From positions 434,001-498,000 of the forward strand of contig NZ_PYFT01000001.1 in assembly GCF_003023845.1 (NCBI RefSeq): 64,000 nucleotides of DNA, read 5' to 3'. Made by a program: the position numbers and the translations under genes. Of the stretch, positions 37,701 to 45,943 are shown piece by piece. How positions within the stretch are numbered: position 1 is the stretch's first letter; every line of letters starts with the position of its first letter. Source of the stretch: Adhaeribacter arboris (GTDB lineage Bacteria > Bacteroidota > Bacteroidia > Cytophagales > Hymenobacteraceae). The notes beneath the pieces are model-generated. The model was given only the letters and a program-made list of their open reading frames with translations. It was not told the origin of the DNA and searched no databases.

Positions 37701-38525
37701 TTACTTTTCGGAGAGGGTAAAAATATGCCCGGGTAGTTCTCCCATTGCTTTTTTGTATTGCCGGGGAGTTAAACCCGTAAATAGTTTAAACGTTCTCGCA
37801 AAGTGAGCCTGGTCGTAAAAGCCGCAATTATAAGTTATTTCGGTAAGCGAGGGGTGCGGTTGGTGTATTTGGTGCAAAGCGGACAAGTATTTTTTATAAA
37901 GCACTAACTCTTCCGTACTCATTCCCAAGTATTCGTTGCACAATCTGCTTAAATGGCGGGGAGTAACATTGTATTTGTCGCTAAGAGCGTGTACGGAAAG
38001 ATTAATAATTTCGGGGTCGGCATGCAGTTTAATAATGCGGTTGTTGGCCGCTAGTTCCGAACCTTCTTTTATTTTACACCTTACCCATTTCAGGATGGCC
38101 GCCACTTGTCCCGGAAAAGAAGGAGCCGCTCGTAGTTCCTCGGCTAAATTATCCAACGATTTACAAACTAAAGAACCGGCCAAAACCTGATCGTTAAATT
38201 CGAGAGTAGGAATATGGAAAATGTATTTCAGGGCAAAAGCATTAAACTGGATTCCCACAAAATACTGTTTGCTCCGGATAGATAAGTTATAAGGGGTAAA
38301 ATTAATGCCGTTAATAAAATAACTGGGTAGGTTAAAAATATCTTTCTCGTTTGACCGGAAACTGGTTATATCCTCCGAAAAATTGAAAATAATTTCCGCC
38401 GTTCCTTTTGGCAGGATTGTTTCGGTGCGCTTAACTAACTGAATGTCCTGAATACGCCAAATATGCCGAATCAATAAATTTTCGGGGCTGGTATTCGGCT
38501 GGAATATATTGGCTATTCGCTCCAT
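37701..38525 (-). CDS. AraC-family regulator
   Basis: 274 residues from the ATG at 38525 (a TTG four codons earlier is less likely). N-terminal DUF6597-like half, then AraC HTH pair: VHALSDKYNVTPRHLSRLCN and GFYDQAHFARTFKLFTGLTPRQY. Likely regulates the membrane protein and cupin downstream. Last gene before the palindrome array. Confidence 0.85.
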   Translation of the reverse strand: MERIANIFQPNTSPENLLIRHIWRIQDIQLVKRTETILPKGTAEIIFNFSEDITSFRSNEKDIFNLPSYFINGINFTPYNLSIRSKQYFVGIQFNAFALKYIFHIPTLEFNDQVLAGSLVCKSLDNLAEELRAAPSFPGQVAAILKWVRCKIKEGSELAANNRIIKLHADPEIINLSVHALSDKYNVTPRHLSRLCNEYLGMSTEELVLYKKYLSALHQIHQPHPSLTEITYNCGFYDQAHFARTFKLFTGLTPRQYKKAMGELPGHIFTLSEK

Positions 38526-38642
38526 GCGTATTTGCAAGTTAGTTAAAATTGCCCTTTGCTGCTAACAAATGCTTGCTGTTTATGGCGGATTACATAGCGG
38601 CTAAGCTTGACTAAAGATATCCTATTTAATAAAATCACCATT

Positions 38643-38731
38643 TCTGAACAGCTTCCGTCAGCCCGAATGAAAGTTGGTAGTAACCTGCAGCCGATGGTAC
38701 AACGTTTGGCCCCACTAACGCCAACCCTGGG
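38643..38731 (-). repeat. Array palindrome 1 (degenerate)
   Basis: TTCCGTCAGCCCG...GGTAGTAACCTGCAGCCG...ACAACGT.TGGCCCCACT aligns with the element at 42528-42729. It begins right at the stop of the Xre gene, as the other elements do with their genes. It is truncated on one side; probably the array's 3' end. Confidence 0.5.
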
Positions 38732-38959
38732 CTAGCGGTTTGTTGTTAGTTTGTCGTTGTTCACGTATTCCAAAATATCACCCGGTTGACAGTTCAGGGC
38801 TTTACAAATGGCGTCTAAGGTGCTAAAACGGATTGCTTTTGCCTTACCTGTCTTCAAGATGGAAAGATTAGATAATGTCAAATCAACTCTTTCGGCAAGT
38901 TCATTCAAAGAAATTTTTCTCTTTGCCATTATCACATCTAAGTTTACAACAATTGGCAT
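38732..38959 (-). CDS. Xre/Cro-type helix-turn-helix regulator
   Basis: 75 residues, a single HTH_26-like domain: ISLNELAERVDLTLSNLSILKTGK, then FSTLDAICKALNCQPGDILEY. Such small Xre proteins are normally encoded just after a DUF2975 membrane protein; here only the last ~42 codons of that partner remain (38963-39091). In the array it is the 3'-most gene. Confidence 0.85.
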   Translation of the reverse strand: MPIVVNLDVIMAKRKISLNELAERVDLTLSNLSILKTGKAKAIRFSTLDAICKALNCQPGDILEYVNNDKLTTNR

Positions 38960-38962
38960 ACC

Positions 38963-39091
38963 TTAAACAGTTAAATCGTTTTTGTGTTGGATTGCAACTC
39001 CTTTTTTAAAGATAGTTGCAATCCCATAAATTACAACTCCCATCCATATAAATGCTTGGCTATCTGCCCAAAACTGGTTTAGGTTGTTCAT
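38963..39091 (-). pseudogene. C-terminal remnant of DUF2975 membrane protein
   Basis: A 42-codon frame: one membrane helix (FIWMGVVIYGIATIF) followed by KKGVAIQHKNDLTV, the usual end of DUF2975 proteins. It stops three bases before the Xre gene. Its 5' end coincides with the palindrome at 39092, so the first ~120 codons are missing. Confidence 0.65.
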
Positions 39092-39370
39092 AACATAGCC
39101 CTTATGCTGCGGTTTTTGGCGGGTTGTCGGGCTACATAGCTTAGTATTTTAATTAAAAAGTGAAGTAACTAATTCGTGTTATTTGCCTTGAGACAACACT
39201 GTTGAATGGGTTTGATAAATCTATAGTGTGCATAAGTATGACAACTACCTAAAATAAGTATGCTTTCAGAAGCGAGATGATCAAGATAACCGGACTTAAG
39301 CCGAACAGCGAACTGCTGCTGATGCTAACAACGTCCAGCCAAACTTGCAGCAAACCCCATGCTGCCGGCC
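39092..39370 (-). repeat. Array palindrome 2
   Basis: Left part 39092-39140 contains CATAGCCC pairing with GGGCTACATAG. Right part 39290-39370 has CGGACTTAAGCCG, GCGAACTGCTGCTGATGCTA, ACAACGTCCAGCC and TTGCAGCAAACCCCATG, shared with elements 5, 6 and 7. It ends eight bases before the stop of the gene at 39379. The middle ~150 bases show nothing. Confidence 0.65.
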
Positions 39371-39378
39371 GTTTTATT

Positions 39379-39945
39379 TCACTCGTATTCGTCATCGTCT
39401 GCAAGAGGGTAGACTGACCAGTCCCAATACTCCAAAATGCTTTCTTCAAACCTGTCGTTGCTTTCATTGTAAGCATGAGCATGTGGAACCGGAAAAGAAA
39501 AATTTTGTTCTTTGAAGCCTTCTTTGTCCAAAAGGGTAATATATTTTTCAGTCTGCCCGTACGCAAAAATTAGGTTGTGTTGGTCATAAATAAATCTTCC
39601 CGAATTGTCAAGTGTACAAATCCAAAGATGGTGTCTGCCGTCCGTTTCAAAATACAGTTTGTATTCAAGCAGAAAATGTTTCAATTCTTCTTTTGTTTCA
39701 ATTAAGGGTGATTGATAACGTCCACGTTCGTTGTCAAGTCGTGATACGACTAAAACATAGAGGATGTAAAATGGCGGGGTTAATGTGTCAACAAGTCTAA
39801 GAATTAATTCAATTTGATTTTTTGAAGCTGCTATTATAAGTCGGCTATGCTCAACTTCATAAATTTTTCCGTAGTCGTGAGTAATCTCATGTCCTTTACT
39901 GTCATAAGAAGTAAATTTTGCTTCGGATAAAAGTTCAGGCTCCAT
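39379..39945 (-). CDS. Hypothetical protein in array
   Basis: 188 residues, acidic, no signal peptide. It has alternating strands and helices, including GRHHLWICTLDNSGRFIYD, and an acidic tail (PLADDDEYE). Family not recognised. Flanked on both sides by array palindromes, same orientation as its neighbours. Confidence 0.6.
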   Translation of the reverse strand: MEPELLSEAKFTSYDSKGHEITHDYGKIYEVEHSRLIIAASKNQIELILRLVDTLTPPFYILYVLVVSRLDNERGRYQSPLIETKEELKHFLLEYKLYFETDGRHHLWICTLDNSGRFIYDQHNLIFAYGQTEKYITLLDKEGFKEQNFSFPVPHAHAYNESNDRFEESILEYWDWSVYPLADDDEYE

Positions 39946-40013
39946 AATTTTTGTTCACTGAAAAGATGTCTCTGTTAAAACTTATTGCTGTCGTTCAAAA
40001 AAATTGCAGGCAA

Positions 40014-40152
40014 CGTTCGAGTATTTGCGAAGGCAGGGAATTCAATGATTGTCCAGCCCGGTACAAATGACCCATTAAAATTATATTCTTGAAGTTATGA
40101 ACCAAAGTTGAAAATTGAACGTCGAGCCCGAACTGCTGCTGATGCCGGCACA
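40014..40152 (-). repeat. Array palindrome 3 (partial)
   Basis: Contains AACGTCGAGCCCGAACTGCTG and CTGATGCCGGCAC, shared with elements 2 and 7, and GCAACGTTCGAG near the left end. It begins about nine bases after the acyltransferase stop. Some core bases are missing compared with element 7. Confidence 0.5.
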
Positions 40153-40161
40153 TAGCTGAAG

Positions 40162-41346
40162 TTACAACTTCCTGCCCTGCTTTTGCAAATACCTTGTTGG
40201 TGGCAGTTTTTTATCTTTCGTGTAAATAAACTGCCTTGCTAACCATTTTCTGATTGGCAAATCATACATTTTCAATGCTGCGTACGCCAGGGCAATTGCT
40301 CCTATTATCAATAAAATACCTATTAGAGCACCTTGTGCTAGTGGCGTTTTATTGTTGGTAATCCAGGCATAATAAACGCAGACAAAAGGAAAATGGGTAA
40401 TGTAAAGCGGGTATGAAATATCGCCCAGAAAAGTGCAGACCTTTTGGCTCCTAACTCCTTTCACTTCCCCAATGGCGCCCAGGTATATTATTAGCGGGAA
40501 AACAAGGACAATGATTAGAGCCTCATACAACCCGTTTAACCAAAGATGCTCGTGACCTCCCACGCGTGGAAAACTTAAAACCAAAACCAATAAAGCACTG
40601 GTTAACAAAAAAGTCCTTTTATTGCTTCCAATCTTCACGGTCCTGCGCAGTAGCATGCCTGCCATGTAAGGAAACAGAAGACGGGTGAAGCCAATTCGTA
40701 ATTGTTCTGGCTCCAATGACCACCCGCCAATCAAATCACCTGATGTTTTGGTTATCGCCAAATGGAACAAAGCAACAGCCGCCATGAATACGAACAGGGA
40801 AAGAACCAGGTTGGGTAATTTTCTTAAAATAAATACATGTAAAATGTTTGCCAGATACTCAAAAAACAGCGACCAGGCCGGTCCGTTAAGCGGATGCATT
40901 TCGTTCCAGCCCCGAATATCCATCGCTGGTGGTATCGGGATCAAAGAATACCCAACACCCGTTATCATAACCAACTGCCAAACCGGTGTACCGGCTATTT
41001 TCGGAAAAACGGCTGACGCTTGTGAATAGAAAAGCAAAGCACCAAAGGTCATTCCCAGGATGATGAGCGGGTGCAACCGTATCAACCTGCGCTTGCAAAA
41101 ATCAACAACAGTCATCTTGTTCCAGCGGTCGTCATAGGCATGTGCCATAACATACCCGGAAAGCATAAAGAAAAAATCAACCGCCAAATAGCCATGGTTG
41201 ATAAACAGTTTGTGGTAGTCGCCTTCGCAAAACAATTCGAAGGTGTGCATTGTAACGACCATGATGGCAGCAAGCCCGCGCAAAGCATCCAGAATGAGCA
41301 GATGCTTCTTTGAGTCAATGAAAGTGGAGTTAGAATTTTGTATCAC
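40162..41346 (-). CDS. Acyltransferase family 3 membrane protein
   Basis: 394 residues from GTG 41346. About ten membrane helices. The N-terminal family motif is LRGLAAIMVVTMHTFEL, with the catalytic-type His, then YLAVDFFFMLSGYVMAH. OafA-like enzymes add acyl groups to surface sugars or peptidoglycan. In the array it is the only large integral enzyme, and codon use looks like its cassette neighbours (more AT-rich than core genes). Confidence 0.85.
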   Translation of the reverse strand: MIQNSNSTFIDSKKHLLILDALRGLAAIMVVTMHTFELFCEGDYHKLFINHGYLAVDFFFMLSGYVMAHAYDDRWNKMTVVDFCKRRLIRLHPLIILGMTFGALLFYSQASAVFPKIAGTPVWQLVMITGVGYSLIPIPPAMDIRGWNEMHPLNGPAWSLFFEYLANILHVFILRKLPNLVLSLFVFMAAVALFHLAITKTSGDLIGGWSLEPEQLRIGFTRLLFPYMAGMLLRRTVKIGSNKRTFLLTSALLVLVLSFPRVGGHEHLWLNGLYEALIIVLVFPLIIYLGAIGEVKGVRSQKVCTFLGDISYPLYITHFPFVCVYYAWITNNKTPLAQGALIGILLIIGAIALAYAALKMYDLPIRKWLARQFIYTKDKKLPPTRYLQKQGRKL

Positions 41347-41380
41347 TTTGTTTTCTAATTATATCAATGCTTTGCCAATT

Positions 41381-41519
41381 GCCACCAACGTTTGCCCGCT
41401 TGCTGAAGTAGCGGCATTGGCAGTTCTGTCGTTGATTTATTTTATGAGGTACACAAAATGTTCGTCGGTTTAATCCCTGTATTTCAACCGCTAATTTAGC
41501 AAGCATTTGTTAGGGGCGC
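41381..41519 (-). repeat. Array palindrome 4 (attC-like shape)
   Basis: Arms: 41381-41414 (CCAACGTTTGCCCGCTTGCT) and 41488-41519 (AGCAAGCATTTGTTAGGGGC). On the minus strand this reads CCTAAC-AAATG-CTTGCTAAATTAGCGG ... CCGCTACTTCAGCAAGCGGG-CAAAC-GTTGG. The imperfect stem with unpaired bases near AAC/GTT ends has the layout of integron attC sites. Arm sequences differ from elements 5-7. Confidence 0.6.
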
Positions 41520-41601
41520 TTTGCCATCTAAAGCATATCAGCCCAAGGCATTTTCTTTTATGCGTGATCTCACCACCTGCGTTTACAATTCGCTTTCAGC
41601 G

Positions 41602-41826
41602 TCAATAGCCCGTTGCCTGGCCGTCTTTGCGAGATTCTGAAGCGCCATAGTATACGCCGCCCTTCAGCATAATGGCTTGATAGCCCCCAAAAATGCCTTT
41701 GCCCATTCGGATAAGGTGTCCTTTGTCCATTAAACTGCTGATAACCTCCGGCTTAAATCCAGACTCAAGATAAGTACTGCCGACACGTTCTATATGACCG
41801 CCGTAATTTGTAGTTCCTTCGTGAAA
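41602..41826 (-). pseudogene. C-terminal remnant of gamma-glutamyltranspeptidase
   Basis: The frame encodes EVISSLMDKGHLIRMGKG, then GGYQAIMLKGGVYYGASE and SRKDGQATGY, which is the C-terminal end of gamma-glutamyltranspeptidase (usual length above 500 residues). The frame runs upstream into palindrome 5 without a start of its own. Only ~70 codons remain. Confidence 0.7.
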
Positions 41827-41911
41827 TCTCGCCCGGACTGAAGGCGAATAGCGAACAAATGCTGGTGCAAACAACTTCCAGCTACACTTGCAGCAAGCCC
41901 CATGTTGTGTG
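41827..41911 (-). repeat. Array palindrome 5 (half element)
   Basis: GCCCGGACTGAAGGCGAATA, CAACTTCCAGC and TTGCAGCAAGCCCCATGTTG match elements 2, 6 and 7. Ends 16 bases before the stop of the cupin gene. The opposite arm is missing; the gamma-glutamyltranspeptidase remnant abuts it there. Confidence 0.65.
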
Positions 41912-41927
41912 AAATTTTTCCTTCCAG

Positions 41928-42494
41928 CTAGTCAATTTTCAAAGGTGGTCCAACAACCTGCATGTCATTATCTGCAAAAATTTTTGCTATTTCCTGCTGA
42001 CTTGGTTCATGGTTTAACGAAGCCATAGTCACAAAGAAATTTTCCAATTTCCCTGCCGGTTGCATTATTACAGTCATTTTTCCTTTTTCTGATACTTGTG
42101 TCCAAGCATGAGCGACTTGTCTTGGCAAAAAGATACTGTCACCAGTTGTTAAATTATATATTTCGTCTCCTACCTTAAACTTATATGCACCTTGTATGAC
42201 ATAAAATATTTCGTCCTGTGCATTGTGAATGTGTAAAGGTGTTCCTTTGCCCTGCGACAGTGAAGTCTGCTCAAAAATTGCAAGTTCGCCATTAGTGTCG
42301 CTTCCAGAAACTTTCACATCAAGAATATTTGAGTTTACTCCTTTCAATTTAATGTGTCCGTGAATTCGCCCTTCGCCTGCTAATATCTTAAACCCTTTTT
42401 TTTGTCTAGGCAATTTGTCCTTCAATTGCGAAAGTGCAAAAAGTGGAGCTGACATTACAGTCAGAATAGATGCAATAAATTTGTTTCTTTTCAT
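41928..42494 (-). CDS. Secreted cupin protein
   Basis: 188 residues with a signal peptide (RNKFIASILTVMSAPLFALS). The cupin domain (~60-165) carries PLHIHNAQDEIFYVIQG (two His and Glu) and LPRQVAHAWTQ (final His). Possibly a periplasmic metal-dependent dioxygenase or sugar-binding protein. Substrate unknown. Flanked by palindromes 5 and 6. Confidence 0.75.
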   Translation of the reverse strand: MKRNKFIASILTVMSAPLFALSQLKDKLPRQKKGFKILAGEGRIHGHIKLKGVNSNILDVKVSGSDTNGELAIFEQTSLSQGKGTPLHIHNAQDEIFYVIQGAYKFKVGDEIYNLTTGDSIFLPRQVAHAWTQVSEKGKMTVIMQPAGKLENFFVTMASLNHEPSQQEIAKIFADNDMQVVGPPLKID

Positions 42495-42527
42495 GTCTGT
42501 AATTATCTAAAAGTTTGTAATAAAGTT

Positions 42528-42729
42528 ACATACAACGAACAGGGCTTGCTGCAGGTGTGGAATTAGTATTCCGTCTGCCCGGAACCGCTGCTGAATAATG
42601 AACTAAAGTACAGTTCAAAAACCAAAAGCCCAATAGCATTCCGTCAAGCCCGGACTGAATCCGAGTAGCGAACTGCTGCCGAAGCTAACAACGTCCAGCC
42701 CCACTTGCACAAAGCTTCATGTTGTGCGT
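42528..42729 (-). repeat. Array palindrome 6
   Basis: 202 bp. Ends ACATACAAC (42528) and GTTGTGCGT (42721-42729). Inner arms GGGCTTGCTGCAGGTGTGG and CCCCACTTGCACAAAGCTT are imperfect complements. Interior CCGTCAAGCCCGGACTGAAT and AACTGCTGCCGAAGCTAACA. The stop of the gene at 42735 lies five bases beyond it. Confidence 0.75.
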
Positions 42730-42734
42730 TCGCC

Positions 42735-43814
42735 TTATCCGAAAGTAACATCGAACCTATTTAGAATATGCTCAATCTCCGCTTTTAACTCTAACGTTGA
42801 AGGCAAATCAATGAATTTTTCCCTAGCTTGTGTTAAGCCGTCTAACAGGTTAGTTAATTTGATATTTTGTCGGAAAAGTTCATTCGATTTCCTCGATGCA
42901 CAGAAATAGAAAATTAAAATAAGTTCTTGAGTACTTAGGTTACTTTTTAAGTAGTCAATAAAAAACTGATTTCCATTATTTTCGATTATGAAGTTTATAA
43001 GGTATGATAAACTTTTGGTGTAGCCATCCGTAAATCCGCTAAATTCACGATAAATATCATCATAGACGGTTATATAGATGTTTTCTCTCTCACTGAAATC
43101 TATTTTGTAAAAATTGACGTGACCTATTGCCCTTAACGCGTTGTTTGCATTTTCATTTTTATTGTCGGTACTTCCAACAACATGTTTGATGTATTCCCAT
43201 CTGTCATTAAAACCTTTTCTCTCTACTATCGATTGTTTTAGTTTCTTTGCGTTATCGGGAGATGGTAAATCATTCAGAGTAGTCGCTTGAAGGATTTTAA
43301 TATAATGAACCAAATCTATTTTTTCAGGCTGTTTGGCCAATAGTTGTCGACCTAATCCAATACATTCAAAGTCAATCTTTTTGAAGAATATGTTGACTAA
43401 GTTATCTAGAGCTTTATAACTTGTGTTTTCGGAGTAAGAAAAATTAATTATTCGTTGGTTGAGATTGTCAACAAGACGAAAAAATAGCTGCTCTTTCAAT
43501 AGATTGGTTTGTTCTTTTTGATTTCTATTGAAGATGTCAACTTGGATTTTGTTTGCTTTTAGTTGCATATAAAAAGCAAGAAATGTAATGAACACTCCAG
43601 CCAAAGCAATAAAGGGGTTCATTAGTCCTCCAATAGTATCACCAATTGGTCCAGTGTCCTTGAAGTTGTATCGTTGATTATTTGATGGACCCGTGAAAAT
43701 AATCGGGGCTAAAAATGAAAATAGGATTAGTATTACTGAAAGAACTATTAATCCGATAATTACATTGTCATTTTTTTCCGACTTATCTACATTGTCTTGA
43801 CTTTCTAATGCCAT
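42735..43814 (-). CDS. Putative phage abortive-infection membrane protein (putAbiC-like)
   Basis: 359 residues. Two N-terminal membrane helices (~18-40 and ~62-84) surround GDTIGGLMNPFIALAGVF, the signature of the putAbiC family (PF16872). The cytoplasmic rest is helical, with FFRLVDNLNQRI after the second helix. Family members are annotated as putative abortive-infection proteins on the basis of relatives in phage-defence settings. Placed between palindromes 6 and 7, it behaves like a single-gene defence cassette. Function is not proven. Confidence 0.7.
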   Translation of the reverse strand: MALESQDNVDKSEKNDNVIIGLIVLSVILILFSFLAPIIFTGPSNNQRYNFKDTGPIGDTIGGLMNPFIALAGVFITFLAFYMQLKANKIQVDIFNRNQKEQTNLLKEQLFFRLVDNLNQRIINFSYSENTSYKALDNLVNIFFKKIDFECIGLGRQLLAKQPEKIDLVHYIKILQATTLNDLPSPDNAKKLKQSIVERKGFNDRWEYIKHVVGSTDNKNENANNALRAIGHVNFYKIDFSERENIYITVYDDIYREFSGFTDGYTKSLSYLINFIIENNGNQFFIDYLKSNLSTQELILIFYFCASRKSNELFRQNIKLTNLLDGLTQAREKFIDLPSTLELKAEIEHILNRFDVTFG

Positions 43815-43863
43815 TTAAGAATTTATTGAGTTAGTTCAAGTTTAAAAGAGGTTACAAAGGGTG

Positions 43864-44063
43864 ACGCACAACGAACAGGTATTGCTGCAGTTTGGGCATT
43901 TGAAACTCGTCACGCCGGGACTGCTGCTGATAACTGTACTGTTGCTGATGTTTTGTTCAAAAGTCAAATTTATAACGTCAAGCCGGAATTAAAGCTGAAT
44001 TTTTAACTGCTGCTGATGCTTACAACGTCCAGCCCAAATTGCAGCAATACCCATGTTGTGCGT
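43864..44063 (-). repeat. Array palindrome 7 (most complete)
   Basis: 200 bp. Terminal arms ACGCACAAC (43864-43872) and GTTGTGCGT (44055-44063) are perfect complements. Inner arms TATTGCTGCAGTTTGGGC and GCCCAAATTGCAGCAATA match at 17 of 18, separated from the ends by unpaired bases. Begins eight bases after the stop of the gene at 44072. Confidence 0.8.
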
Positions 44064-44071
44064 AGTTAAAG

Positions 44072-44779
44072 TCAGGCAACGTTTAATAAGTCAGTCTGAA
44101 TTTTTGTCAAACAAAAAGAAACTTGCGGATAATAGTCATTAAGCCTACTTCTTGCTTCTTGCAGAACTGTCCTTATTTGTTCATCATCTGTGAGTGGCGA
44201 AATAGTTTCTCGTATTACATAAGAAGGTGTGTGAGTATACTTATCAACTCCGTTGTCTTCAAGCAATTTTGAAATCCAACTGTCCAAGTCATTGTCGTCA
44301 AGCATCGGAGTTGTAAAGTCTAAAAAATAATTGAAGAGAGAAACTAAAAAGCGTTTTTCTAAAAGGTTATCAGCTGTTAATAAGATTGCAGCGGATTTAG
44401 AGCGAACCTCAATTCTATTATAGTCATTTTTATTTCTTTCTTTTTCAATAAAGTCCTTGATAAAAATTATGCGCTTATTATAATCATCAATTGTGTTGTC
44501 GGACATAAAGTATATTTTTTGCGGGTCGCTTTTTGTCACACCTTCAATTTCAGGGATGTCAATAGTGCTTTCGTCCTTAAGCGGTAATGCAGCAATACAG
44601 AAGTCAATGATTTTAATGTATTCTGCGTGTATTGTATTGAAGGTTTGATAAACTGGGAGTATTACTTCCTTAAACTTCTTTTCACGCTGCGCTTGCTCAT
44701 ATTCGCCTATTTTGAAAATTATGTCAAAAAAGTCCTTGAAGGCTTTTGCAAGAATTCCGAAGGATGGCAATGATAGCAT
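44072..44779 (-). CDS. Hypothetical helical protein in array
   Basis: 235 residues, mostly helical, no signal peptide or clear membrane segment. Segments KDFFDIIFKIGEYEQAQRE and KIQTDLLNVA suggest coiled coils at both ends. Not recognised. It is the 5'-most gene of the array in transcription order and neighbours the putAbiC-like gene, so a defence role is possible but only by association. Confidence 0.6.
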   Translation of the reverse strand: MLSLPSFGILAKAFKDFFDIIFKIGEYEQAQREKKFKEVILPVYQTFNTIHAEYIKIIDFCIAALPLKDESTIDIPEIEGVTKSDPQKIYFMSDNTIDDYNKRIIFIKDFIEKERNKNDYNRIEVRSKSAAILLTADNLLEKRFLVSLFNYFLDFTTPMLDDNDLDSWISKLLEDNGVDKYTHTPSYVIRETISPLTDDEQIRTVLQEARSRLNDYYPQVSFCLTKIQTDLLNVA

Positions 44780-44948
44780 TTCAATGATTTTGGTTGGTCA
44801 ATTAATTACGCACAACTCTTAAATAGACGCATGTTTTCGCCTATTGTAAACAAATATACAAATACCACCTGTTTTTGCAATTCGTGAAAATGTTTTTTGT
44901 AATTCATCTATATTTCAACAAATTATGTGTATACTAAGCCATTCAGCC

Positions 44949-45036
44949 ATACAAAATGCGTTACGCGTATTTGGTATGGCTGGATGCGGTGCTTTTAAAA
45001 CCCGGCAATACCAAATACGCGTATCGCATTTTGTAT
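44949..45036. repeat. Long inverted repeat at the array edge
   Basis: Arms of 29 bases (44949-44977 and 45008-45036) match with one mismatch, containing TACGCGTATTTGGTAT. The 30-base loop contains GCGGTGC, which recurs as GCACCGC just downstream. Not obviously related to the other array palindromes. The rest of 44780-45207 shows no gene. Confidence 0.7.
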
Positions 45037-45207
45037 TACTAAATAAGTCGATACTATAAAATGCACCGCCTGATTTTTCAAGGTATGTAATTTATTGCTT
45101 TTTCTTGTTTACTGGGTTATTTTTTACTAGTTTGATGTTACTAATCCAGAACAATACTAAGCTCCATTAAAAACTATTGTTTTGAAATTTCTTTTTAAGG
45201 AAAATGT

Positions 45208-45304: not shown

Positions 45305-45943
45305 TTATTCGCCGTCGTTTACGTCCATGTTTAACTTCTGGAACGTGCCGCCGAAGCTGCCTTTTAGGGTTTTACCGTTTTCCAAAGTTAAGTTATATTC
45401 CGTGGTAATTACCGGTAGAGCACCCGTTACTTTAATGGTGCCGCCGGTAATTTTTACATCGGCTTCTTCTTCCCAGTTTTTGTCGCCGTCGGTGTCCATC
45501 CGCACAATAGATTCGTAAAAGAACGCCTTATTTTTGTATTTGGCTTCTACTTGGGCCGGAGTTAAATTTATATCGGCCGCCATATTGGTATACTCAAAAG
45601 TACCGGGCTTAAAGCTGGCGCCATCCGGCGAAAGCAGCGCTCCTAACAACGCAATTTTACCATCCTGCATTTCGGTAATTTCCCCGTCATTCGAAAATTT
45701 AGGCGTTCCATCAGTCAGGAACAAGAAATCTAAATGATGCGTAGGCGCGTTGCCGAATAATTTTATGCCGTTGCCTAGGGCATAGTAGCCGTTTTTAATC
45801 GTAAACTTTTCGCCGTTGTACTCGGTGTTGCCGCTTGGTTTGGGGTTGTTGTTGTCATTGTCATCATCGGTGGTGCAGGAAGTAGCGAAGAAACCAAAGG
45901 AAAGCAGAATAGCAATTAACTTAAAATTGAATAAGGTTTTCAT
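45305..45943 (-). CDS. Hypothetical lipoprotein
   Basis: 212 residues. Lipobox FFATSC near residue 23, then an Asp/Asn-rich spacer (TTDDDNDNNNPKPS) typical of Bacteroidota surface lipoproteins. The remaining ~175 residues are beta-rich and repeat threonine/glycine strands; family not recognised. Together with the barrel protein upstream it may form a small envelope unit. Confidence 0.7.
   Translation of the reverse strand: MKTLFNFKLIAILLSFGFFATSCTTDDDNDNNNPKPSGNTEYNGEKFTIKNGYYALGNGIKLFGNAPTHHLDFLFLTDGTPKFSNDGEITEMQDGKIALLGALLSPDGASFKPGTFEYTNMAADINLTPAQVEAKYKNKAFFYESIVRMDTDGDKNWEEEADVKITGGTIKVTGALPVITTEYNLTLENGKTLKGSFGGTFQKLNMDVNDGE

Follow-up and report, generated by a model that had tools for sequence, protein, structure and literature searches.

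How was an array of gene cassettes assembled at a locus that has no integrase gene beside it? The question is raised by a 64,000-nucleotide stretch of the genome of Adhaeribacter arboris (hereafter the window; positions 434001-498000 of contig C1, genome size 7.25 Mb). As delimited by sequence and a covariance model, positions 38558-44816 of the window carry on the minus strand six genes and a fragment of a gamma-glutamyltranspeptidase (GGT) gene, together with seven attC-like palindromes, two of which are truncated. We consider it likely, with a probability of about 0.85, that the window holds the cassette array, attI site and promoter of an integron-type system that no longer has an integrase gene of its own, with REC as its most likely recombinase. 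REC is a family of tyrosine recombinases related to but distinct from the integron integrase IntI. Judging from sequence, the system would work like an integron in its sites, its array, its attI and its cassette differences, with a likely recombinase that would not be recognised as an IntI. This interpretation draws on the structure of the array, a second copy of attI, the matching of cassette ends across genes, breaks at GTT between genomes of the Hymenobacter group and the linkage of REC genes to arrays.

The array and its head

A sequence-only reading of the window had proposed an integron-like cassette array with seven palindromes. The array is confirmed by the covariance model R1, which recovers all seven elements on the minus strand with E-values of 0.01 or better (rough values, according to the tool's own note). 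Of the 30 sites on which R1 was trained, the window supplied three, E3, E6 and E7; E1, E2, E4 and E5 were recovered although they lie outside the training set, and the sole further match in the window is to the other strand of E7 (32 bits). From the head of the array onwards, and all on the minus strand, E7 (43864-44063) is a 200-bp site with R'' ACGCACAAC and R' GTTGTGCGT that scores 170.3 bits; E6 (42528-42729) and E3 (40006-40204), which like E7 are training members, score 159.6 and 159.2 bits, respectively. E4 (41381-41517) is of a 137-bp type with R'' GCCCCTAAC and R' GTTGGTGGC, and reaches 32.8 bits with R1 and 94.4 bits with a second model, R2, of which it is itself a training member. 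E1 (38558-38739; 42.1 bits) is the last of the array. The count of seven palindromes requires qualification for E2 (39198-39365; 38.9 bits) and E5 (41737-41912; 36.8 bits), of which only the 5′ halves are present; the 3′ half of E5 is lost to the GGT fragment, and a repeat family, D1, spans its clear 5′ half.

The sites have the layout 5′-R''(..AAC)-3 nt-L'' ... L'-4 to 8 nt-GTT R' and fall into two size classes of about 136 and 200 bp, with AACA and the GTT of R' invariant in an alignment of 30 sites (A4). A scanner for R and L boxes (R ≥ 3, L ≥ 11) finds E7, E4 and E3 and misses E1, E2, E5 and E6 at these settings. It returns one match of such strength in the rest of the window, and 20 dinucleotide shuffles of 6.5 kb gave eight matches in total, none equal to E7 or E4 and the best equal to E3. 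Predicted folding relative to shuffles gave z-scores below −1 in 41 of 46 sites and below −2 in 29, the strand opposite the gene having the more stable predicted fold in 38 of the 46. A same-strand stop codon lies within 60 nt of 49 of 60 sites, as against 20.5% at random positions, so the palindromes are not scattered without regard to gene ends, an outcome that had been named as telling against a cassette array. The core GTTGTGC, put forward as the mark of a separate class, does not serve as one: the R' core varies, and a T in the fifth position is likewise seen in attC-like sites near true IntI genes of the phylum, for instance GTTATGC. The distinct thing is the recombinase, not the core sequence.

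The attI and promoter candidate at the head of the array were missed by the sequence-only reading. An attI or leader region (44805-45037, minus strand) ends at the first GTT core and is common to the second integron-like locus of the same genome, L060: window positions 45037-44805 and L060 positions 13265-13034 are 85.3% identical over 238 bp, and the L060 copy sits directly behind the stop codon of a broken REC gene. The two copies agree through TGCGTCTATTTAAGA-GTT, that is up to the attI crossover core at 44814-44816 (minus strand), where cassette 1 starts, and then run into different first cassettes; GTTGTGCGTA at this core matches the R'' of cassette 1. The leader contains a cassette promoter candidate with the sequence TTG-N19-TATATTTG (44851-44880, minus strand), which we take to be of the Bacteroidota −33/−7 type and whose TATATTTG part is conserved in the L060 copy. 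Compared by eye across genera, attI reads GCGTATATTTAWGW/GTT in several (the slash marking the crossover), and its Hymenobacter form ends in AAT/GTT or GAT/GTT. Inverted repeats with TACAAAATGCG and CGCATTTTGTA are present at 44940-45037 of the window and at 13164-13265 of L060, behind the lost or broken REC gene. Repeats, again judged by eye, also precede attI in several other loci, and they may be binding sites of the recombinase.

In agreement with the earlier view that the window has no integrase, a tblastn search with 21 RECs revealed no REC remnant in the window (best E 0.024). With attI and a promoter candidate still in place and no remnant of a recombinase detected, the array in the window resembles an integron minus its integrase gene and not an off-target cluster of sites; perhaps it is a copied or moved piece of L060. 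Assessed with our own site models and not with IntegronFinder, it has at least two attC sites and no integrase gene nearby, as does a CALIN (IntegronFinder's term for a cluster of attC sites lacking an integrase), from which it differs by its attI, its promoter candidate and the likely cognate recombinase in the genome.

Cassette ends and breaks at GTT

The R' of an integron site is part of the cassette that follows, and it should therefore match the R'' of the next site and not that of its own. We examined this rule in 51 adjacent site pairs from 19 stretches, using 70 hand-picked sites. At all six informative bases, the R' core is identical to the R'' of the next site in 32 of the 51 pairs, and to that of its own site in five; the match to the next site is better in 34 pairs, worse in four and tied in 13. 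The summed score of 257 compares with a mean of 154 and a maximum of 190 under permutation, none of 20,000 permutations reaching the observed value. The 19 imperfect pairs, among them failing ones such as those of L107, L110 and L063, are included in this count. A smaller test on 13 cassettes likewise gave 0 of 20,000 permutations. The clearest case in the window is the acyltransferase cassette, whose 5′ core GTTGGTGGCA is the reverse complement of its own R'', the R'' of the preceding site being GCCCCTAAC. Site pairs on two viral contigs from IMG/VR (L153 and L154) also obey the rule, and a third contig (L155) has one clear site.

Differences between genomes fall at the same point and, together with the rule, suggest that cassettes recombine. 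Hymenobacter siberiensis (G131, locus L104) and genome G129 (locus L227) are 99.65% identical over 2,586 bp on the REC side and 98.6% identical over 4,107 bp on the opposite side, and between these flanks one genome has four site-ending units and the other has one. The left break reads ...atcgtaat/GTTATAACC in one and ...atcgtaat/GTTGTGTGC in the other, the right break reads .../GTTAGCGACAACAAAATAAAAG in both, and both lie exactly at /GTT. The pair L105/L230 repeats this pattern, with breaks at GTT and other cassettes. A lack of exchange at the core had been proposed as an argument against a cassette array; genomes of the Hymenobacter group do differ in cassettes between breaks at that point, and at the window locus itself no exchange was seen, the only difference there being the absence of the whole array in G024, a genome of the same genus in which both window neighbours lie side by side with 522 bp between them. 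The left neighbour is kept in G003, which differs beyond it. The pair L107/L108 was rejected as a cassette swap, its difference looking, from open reading frames and ends, like an insertion sequence that replaced part of a gene. In the mechanism that we propose, units made up of a gene and its attC would enter at the G^TT of either attI or an attC, always in the same orientation, and would be read from the predicted promoter of the leader.

REC, its linkage to the arrays, and IntI

When 27 genomes holding the site motif were searched with the IntI model TIGR02249, many of them contained a second family that matches only about IntI positions 2-180 and 239-315, which is REC. These proteins have Phage_integrase and SAM-like domains (eight scanned), and their catalytic residues R, K, H-x-L-R-H, GH and Y are invariant in ten aligned sequences. 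The IntI-specific insert is absent, model positions of about 180-239 being unmatched and none of the ten RECs of alignment A5 having it. At the N-terminus, an extra domain of about 75 residues, with a linker, weakly resembles SMARCAL1-HARP and XPB, and array-linked RECs are about 360 to 510 residues long. Five RECs scored 162-201 bits, in two stretches, against TIGR02249 (cut-off 265). The best NCBIfam model for the five was NF040815 (XerA_Arch; 185-208 bits against a cut-off of 220), named 'site-specific tyrosine recombinase/integron integrase' by NCBI, and no NCBIfam cut-off was reached. An AlphaFold model of full-length REC is poor outside the N-terminal part (mean predicted local distance difference test score 63), and its PDB matches are IntI4, XerA and other tyrosine recombinases with low TM-scores. 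In a tree of 66 rows, built with an enlarged Xer set after a first tree with two Xer rows, the 23 IntI rows form one clade (100/100) and 27 REC rows a separate group (97/91), which includes one Ignavibacteriales row labelled Xer while the other Xer rows stand apart. REC and IntI are not firmly placed as sister groups, and the tool warns of long branches.

REC shares its catalytic core and its best NCBIfam model with XerA, XerC and XerD, and is set apart from them by a length greater by roughly 60-200 residues and by its own clade. It could be an insert-less member of the integron-like tyrosine recombinase subgroup of Smyshlyaev et al. 2021 (PMC8138268); the accessible text of that source assigns no cassette array to insert-less members and calls the insert essential for integron function, if not fully conserved in the subgroup. 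With IntI integrons (class 1, Vibrio superintegrons and sedentary chromosomal ones) the REC system has in common one-strand cassettes each ending in a folding attC-like site, an attI-like start, ends that match across the gene, breaks at GTT, a leader promoter candidate and cassette differences between genomes. It differs from them in a recombinase with the extra domain and without the insert, in a REC gene that precedes attI and points the same way as the cassettes, and in sites of about 136 or 200 bp with spacers of 3 nt and roughly 4-8 nt.

REC genes and sites are associated both in position and in occurrence. In 13 of 23 loci, sites lie on the strand of REC and within 4 kb downstream of it (L060, which has a broken REC, L063, L104, L177, L178, L180, L181, L184-L188 and L190; in L178 and L180 the contig ends within the site). 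Across 204 genomes of the family, REC at E 1e-60 is found in 84 and sites in at least 98: 55 genomes have both, 29 REC only, 43 sites only and 77 neither (Fisher 2.5e-5). Up to 12 candidates were scored per genome, and the REC-site counts are lower bounds. All 18 genomes with a REC of at least 455 bits have sites, as compared with 80 of the other 186. For 35 of 37 neighbouring site-REC pairs within 20 kb, the site is downstream on the same strand within 6 kb; in the remaining two, it is upstream between two REC pieces in one, and on the other strand 17 kb off in the other. Twelve stretches around other recombinases of this genome contained 0 sites. Position and co-occurrence in these sequences strongly suggest that REC is the integrase. 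It would then catalyse cassette recombination and act on a folded single strand, as IntI does, and its N-terminal domain would help to recognise the folded site. One REC gene of this genome (C1:6676226-6677668; 5227-6669 of L063) encodes 480 residues with intact catalytic positions and heads an array of its own; about 23 kb of nearly all same-strand genes follow it (L191, C1:6676226 to about 6700901), with four model-found sites.

The distribution of IntI bears on whether the window is instead an ordinary CALIN, whose cassettes were placed by a true IntI (the genome's own homologue before its decay, or one visiting in trans) and in which the REC genes are unrelated neighbours. We regard this as improbable. 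IntI over the TIGR02249 cut-off occurs in 106 of 395 genomes of the phylum, and in two of 395 of the class and two of 200 of the family, where sites are so much more frequent; just one of the 27 genomes with the site motif has it, from the Ignavibacteriales. The adjacency and co-orientation of REC and sites speak against this alternative as well. It draws some weight from the attC-like sites near true IntI genes of the phylum, which have the same R/L layout, with R2 matching one of six stretches around such genes, from integrons reported in Bacteroidota in the accessible text of PMC8618304, and from the IntI homologue over the cut-off that the proposed search for an IntI-like recombinase did find in this genome (C1:1659408-1660301, minus strand; about 11409-12302 of L027) and in one of seven other genomes of the genus searched (8934-9923 of L066, minus strand). 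This homologue is a poor candidate. The catalytic Arg is changed to Lys, the Lys loop is shortened and the first His is Tyr in the copy of G024; the own copy has the same Arg to Lys change and shortened loop, together with an in-frame stop in the third motif. It was rejected as an active integrase on account of the changed residues and the stop, and in neither genome do the surrounding 20 kb contain an R1 site. The earlier suggestion that another recombinase is at work is supported. The lone homologue has kept its neighbouring genes in two species of the genus, has a ratio of nonsynonymous to synonymous substitution rates of about 0.12 by simple count and, on its sequence features, is perhaps a domesticated, non-catalytic IntI. 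The other of the two class genomes with IntI (L111, G240:C40) shows no clear attC site over the initial 15 kb of the contig, and its IntI is possibly a binning error.

It is more improbable still that REC is the integrase of a mobile element using the array as its attachment site, with the array built by an unseen factor such as XerCD. Such a role would accommodate the REC relatives without sites (L171, L173 and L175), the sites found behind another integrase (L059) and the generic integrase families that REC matches, but it does not fit the position of REC before attI, which stays the same in genomes that have conserved flanks and differ in their cassettes, or the two Xer-type loci examined in this genome (L243 and L244), which have no sites. 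That the palindromes are non-autonomous repeats, akin to miniature inverted-repeat transposable elements or repetitive extragenic palindromes, settling behind stop codons to form arrays as chance runs is very hard to sustain: they are palindromic, of about 136 or 200 bp and with internal sequence in common, yet in a mobile palindrome the two ends would match each other, whereas these ends match better across the gene, near-identical genomes break at GTT on both sides of whole gene-plus-site units, and the sites stand in one-strand arrays behind REC.

Several observations weigh against our reading of an integron-type system served by REC. A matching 5′ core is absent in four of the 13 cassettes (L104_orf308, L106, L109 and L110). 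Ten of the 23 REC loci have no site directly downstream: the contig ends within 0.72 kb in five, L171, L173 and L175 have no site, and in L172 and L189 the only sites are more distant or lie past genes on the opposite strand. For the 98 REC places considered, a downstream site is listed in at least 24, and among the matches listed 43 genomes with sites have no REC at E 1e-60. The site models and the REC alignment were built partly from the same genomes, and the co-occurrence is not fully independent. A thirteenth stretch around recombinases of this genome, L059, chosen because of its site, has two sites on the same strand as a 402-residue phage-type integrase and at least 1.4 kb beyond it. The array headed by this genome's intact-looking REC has an attI unlike that of the window, and the model-found sites cover only about the first 12 kb of that array. 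Finally, REC is without the domain described as essential in IntI.

The chances seem to us evenly balanced that the Bacteroidota have an integron lineage of their own, in which an insert-less cousin of IntI recombines folded attC hairpins via a fused structure-specific DNA-binding domain of the HARP/XPB-DRD type. If this is true, the IntI insert would be one of two solutions to the same problem, and it becomes testable whether the IntI-specific domain is needed for recombination of folded attC sites. According to the accessible text of PMC9668308 and PMC8352920, IntI is identified by its additional domain, and integrons are searched for via IntI and this domain; common integron searches would probably overlook the REC system. 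If REC is an integron integrase, cassette platforms or cassettes would be present in about half of the family and in members of several other Bacteroidia groups, and IntI-based searches would miss such platforms or call them CALIN. No paper on REC-type integrons was found in a literature search, subscription papers and preprints being outside its reach.

Spread of the sites and cassette genes

A search of a species-genome collection for a 23-base motif of the 200-bp sites gave 29 stretches, 27 of which have titles of the Bacteroidota, Bacteroidetes or Bacteroidia group, one of the Ignavibacteriales and one labelled Williamsia, which bears out the supposition of a type centred on Bacteroidota. 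The motif is also present in three viral contigs, and a search of plasmids with E7 gave no match.

The window cassettes, all on the minus strand, are headed by orf235 (44072-44779; cassette 1), which has no family match, followed by orf359 (42735-43814; cassette 2), with a weak putAbiC match, and a cupin gene (41928-42494; cassette 3; PF07883, 1.4e-13). The GGT remnant is a C-terminal fragment (41602-41874) whose PF01019 score of 17.6 bits is under the cut-off of 27; its open reading frame overlaps E5. An acyltransferase 3 gene (40162-41346; PF01757, 4.2e-34), orf188 (39379-39945; no family match) and orf75, encoding a Cro/C1-type helix-turn-helix protein (38732-38959; PF13443, 8.6e-25), complete the array, in which E3 and E1 start inside the 3′ ends of their own genes. 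Outside it, and adjoining each other in G024, lie on the minus strand an AraC-type regulator on the left (37701-38537; identified by family match) and orf212 on the right (45305-45943). An Rfam scan of the window gave nothing at gathering thresholds. The array genes had been described as AT-rich, which is true of five of the six (G+C content 0.325-0.377, window 0.416) and not of the acyltransferase gene (0.439); the array as a whole, at 0.391, is near its left flank at 0.395.

Among the cassette proteins of the window, orf359 and the cupin alone gave matches, weak ones, in the other fetched loci, own copies excluded. The two sites of L059 (8302-8500 and 11022-11169), far from any REC, flank a gene for an 829-residue protein that presumably resembles HSP90-type-ATPase/DUF3883 proteins; this pair, which is outside the count of 51, obeys the cassette rule partly (GTTAGCGGC vs GTTATAGGT). 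The phage-defence function earlier proposed for one window cassette comes down to orf359, with a PF16872 (putAbiC) score of 22.2 bits against a cut-off of 22 and a weak AbiP match (E 0.004). The REC-linked arrays open a pool of cassettes with possible defence genes. PADLOC gave matches for two of ten cassette proteins from other loci. In L186, a cassette gene at 9555-11147 matches PDC-M55C (3.8e-69) and HEC-05 of PADLOC and is a candidate defence gene.

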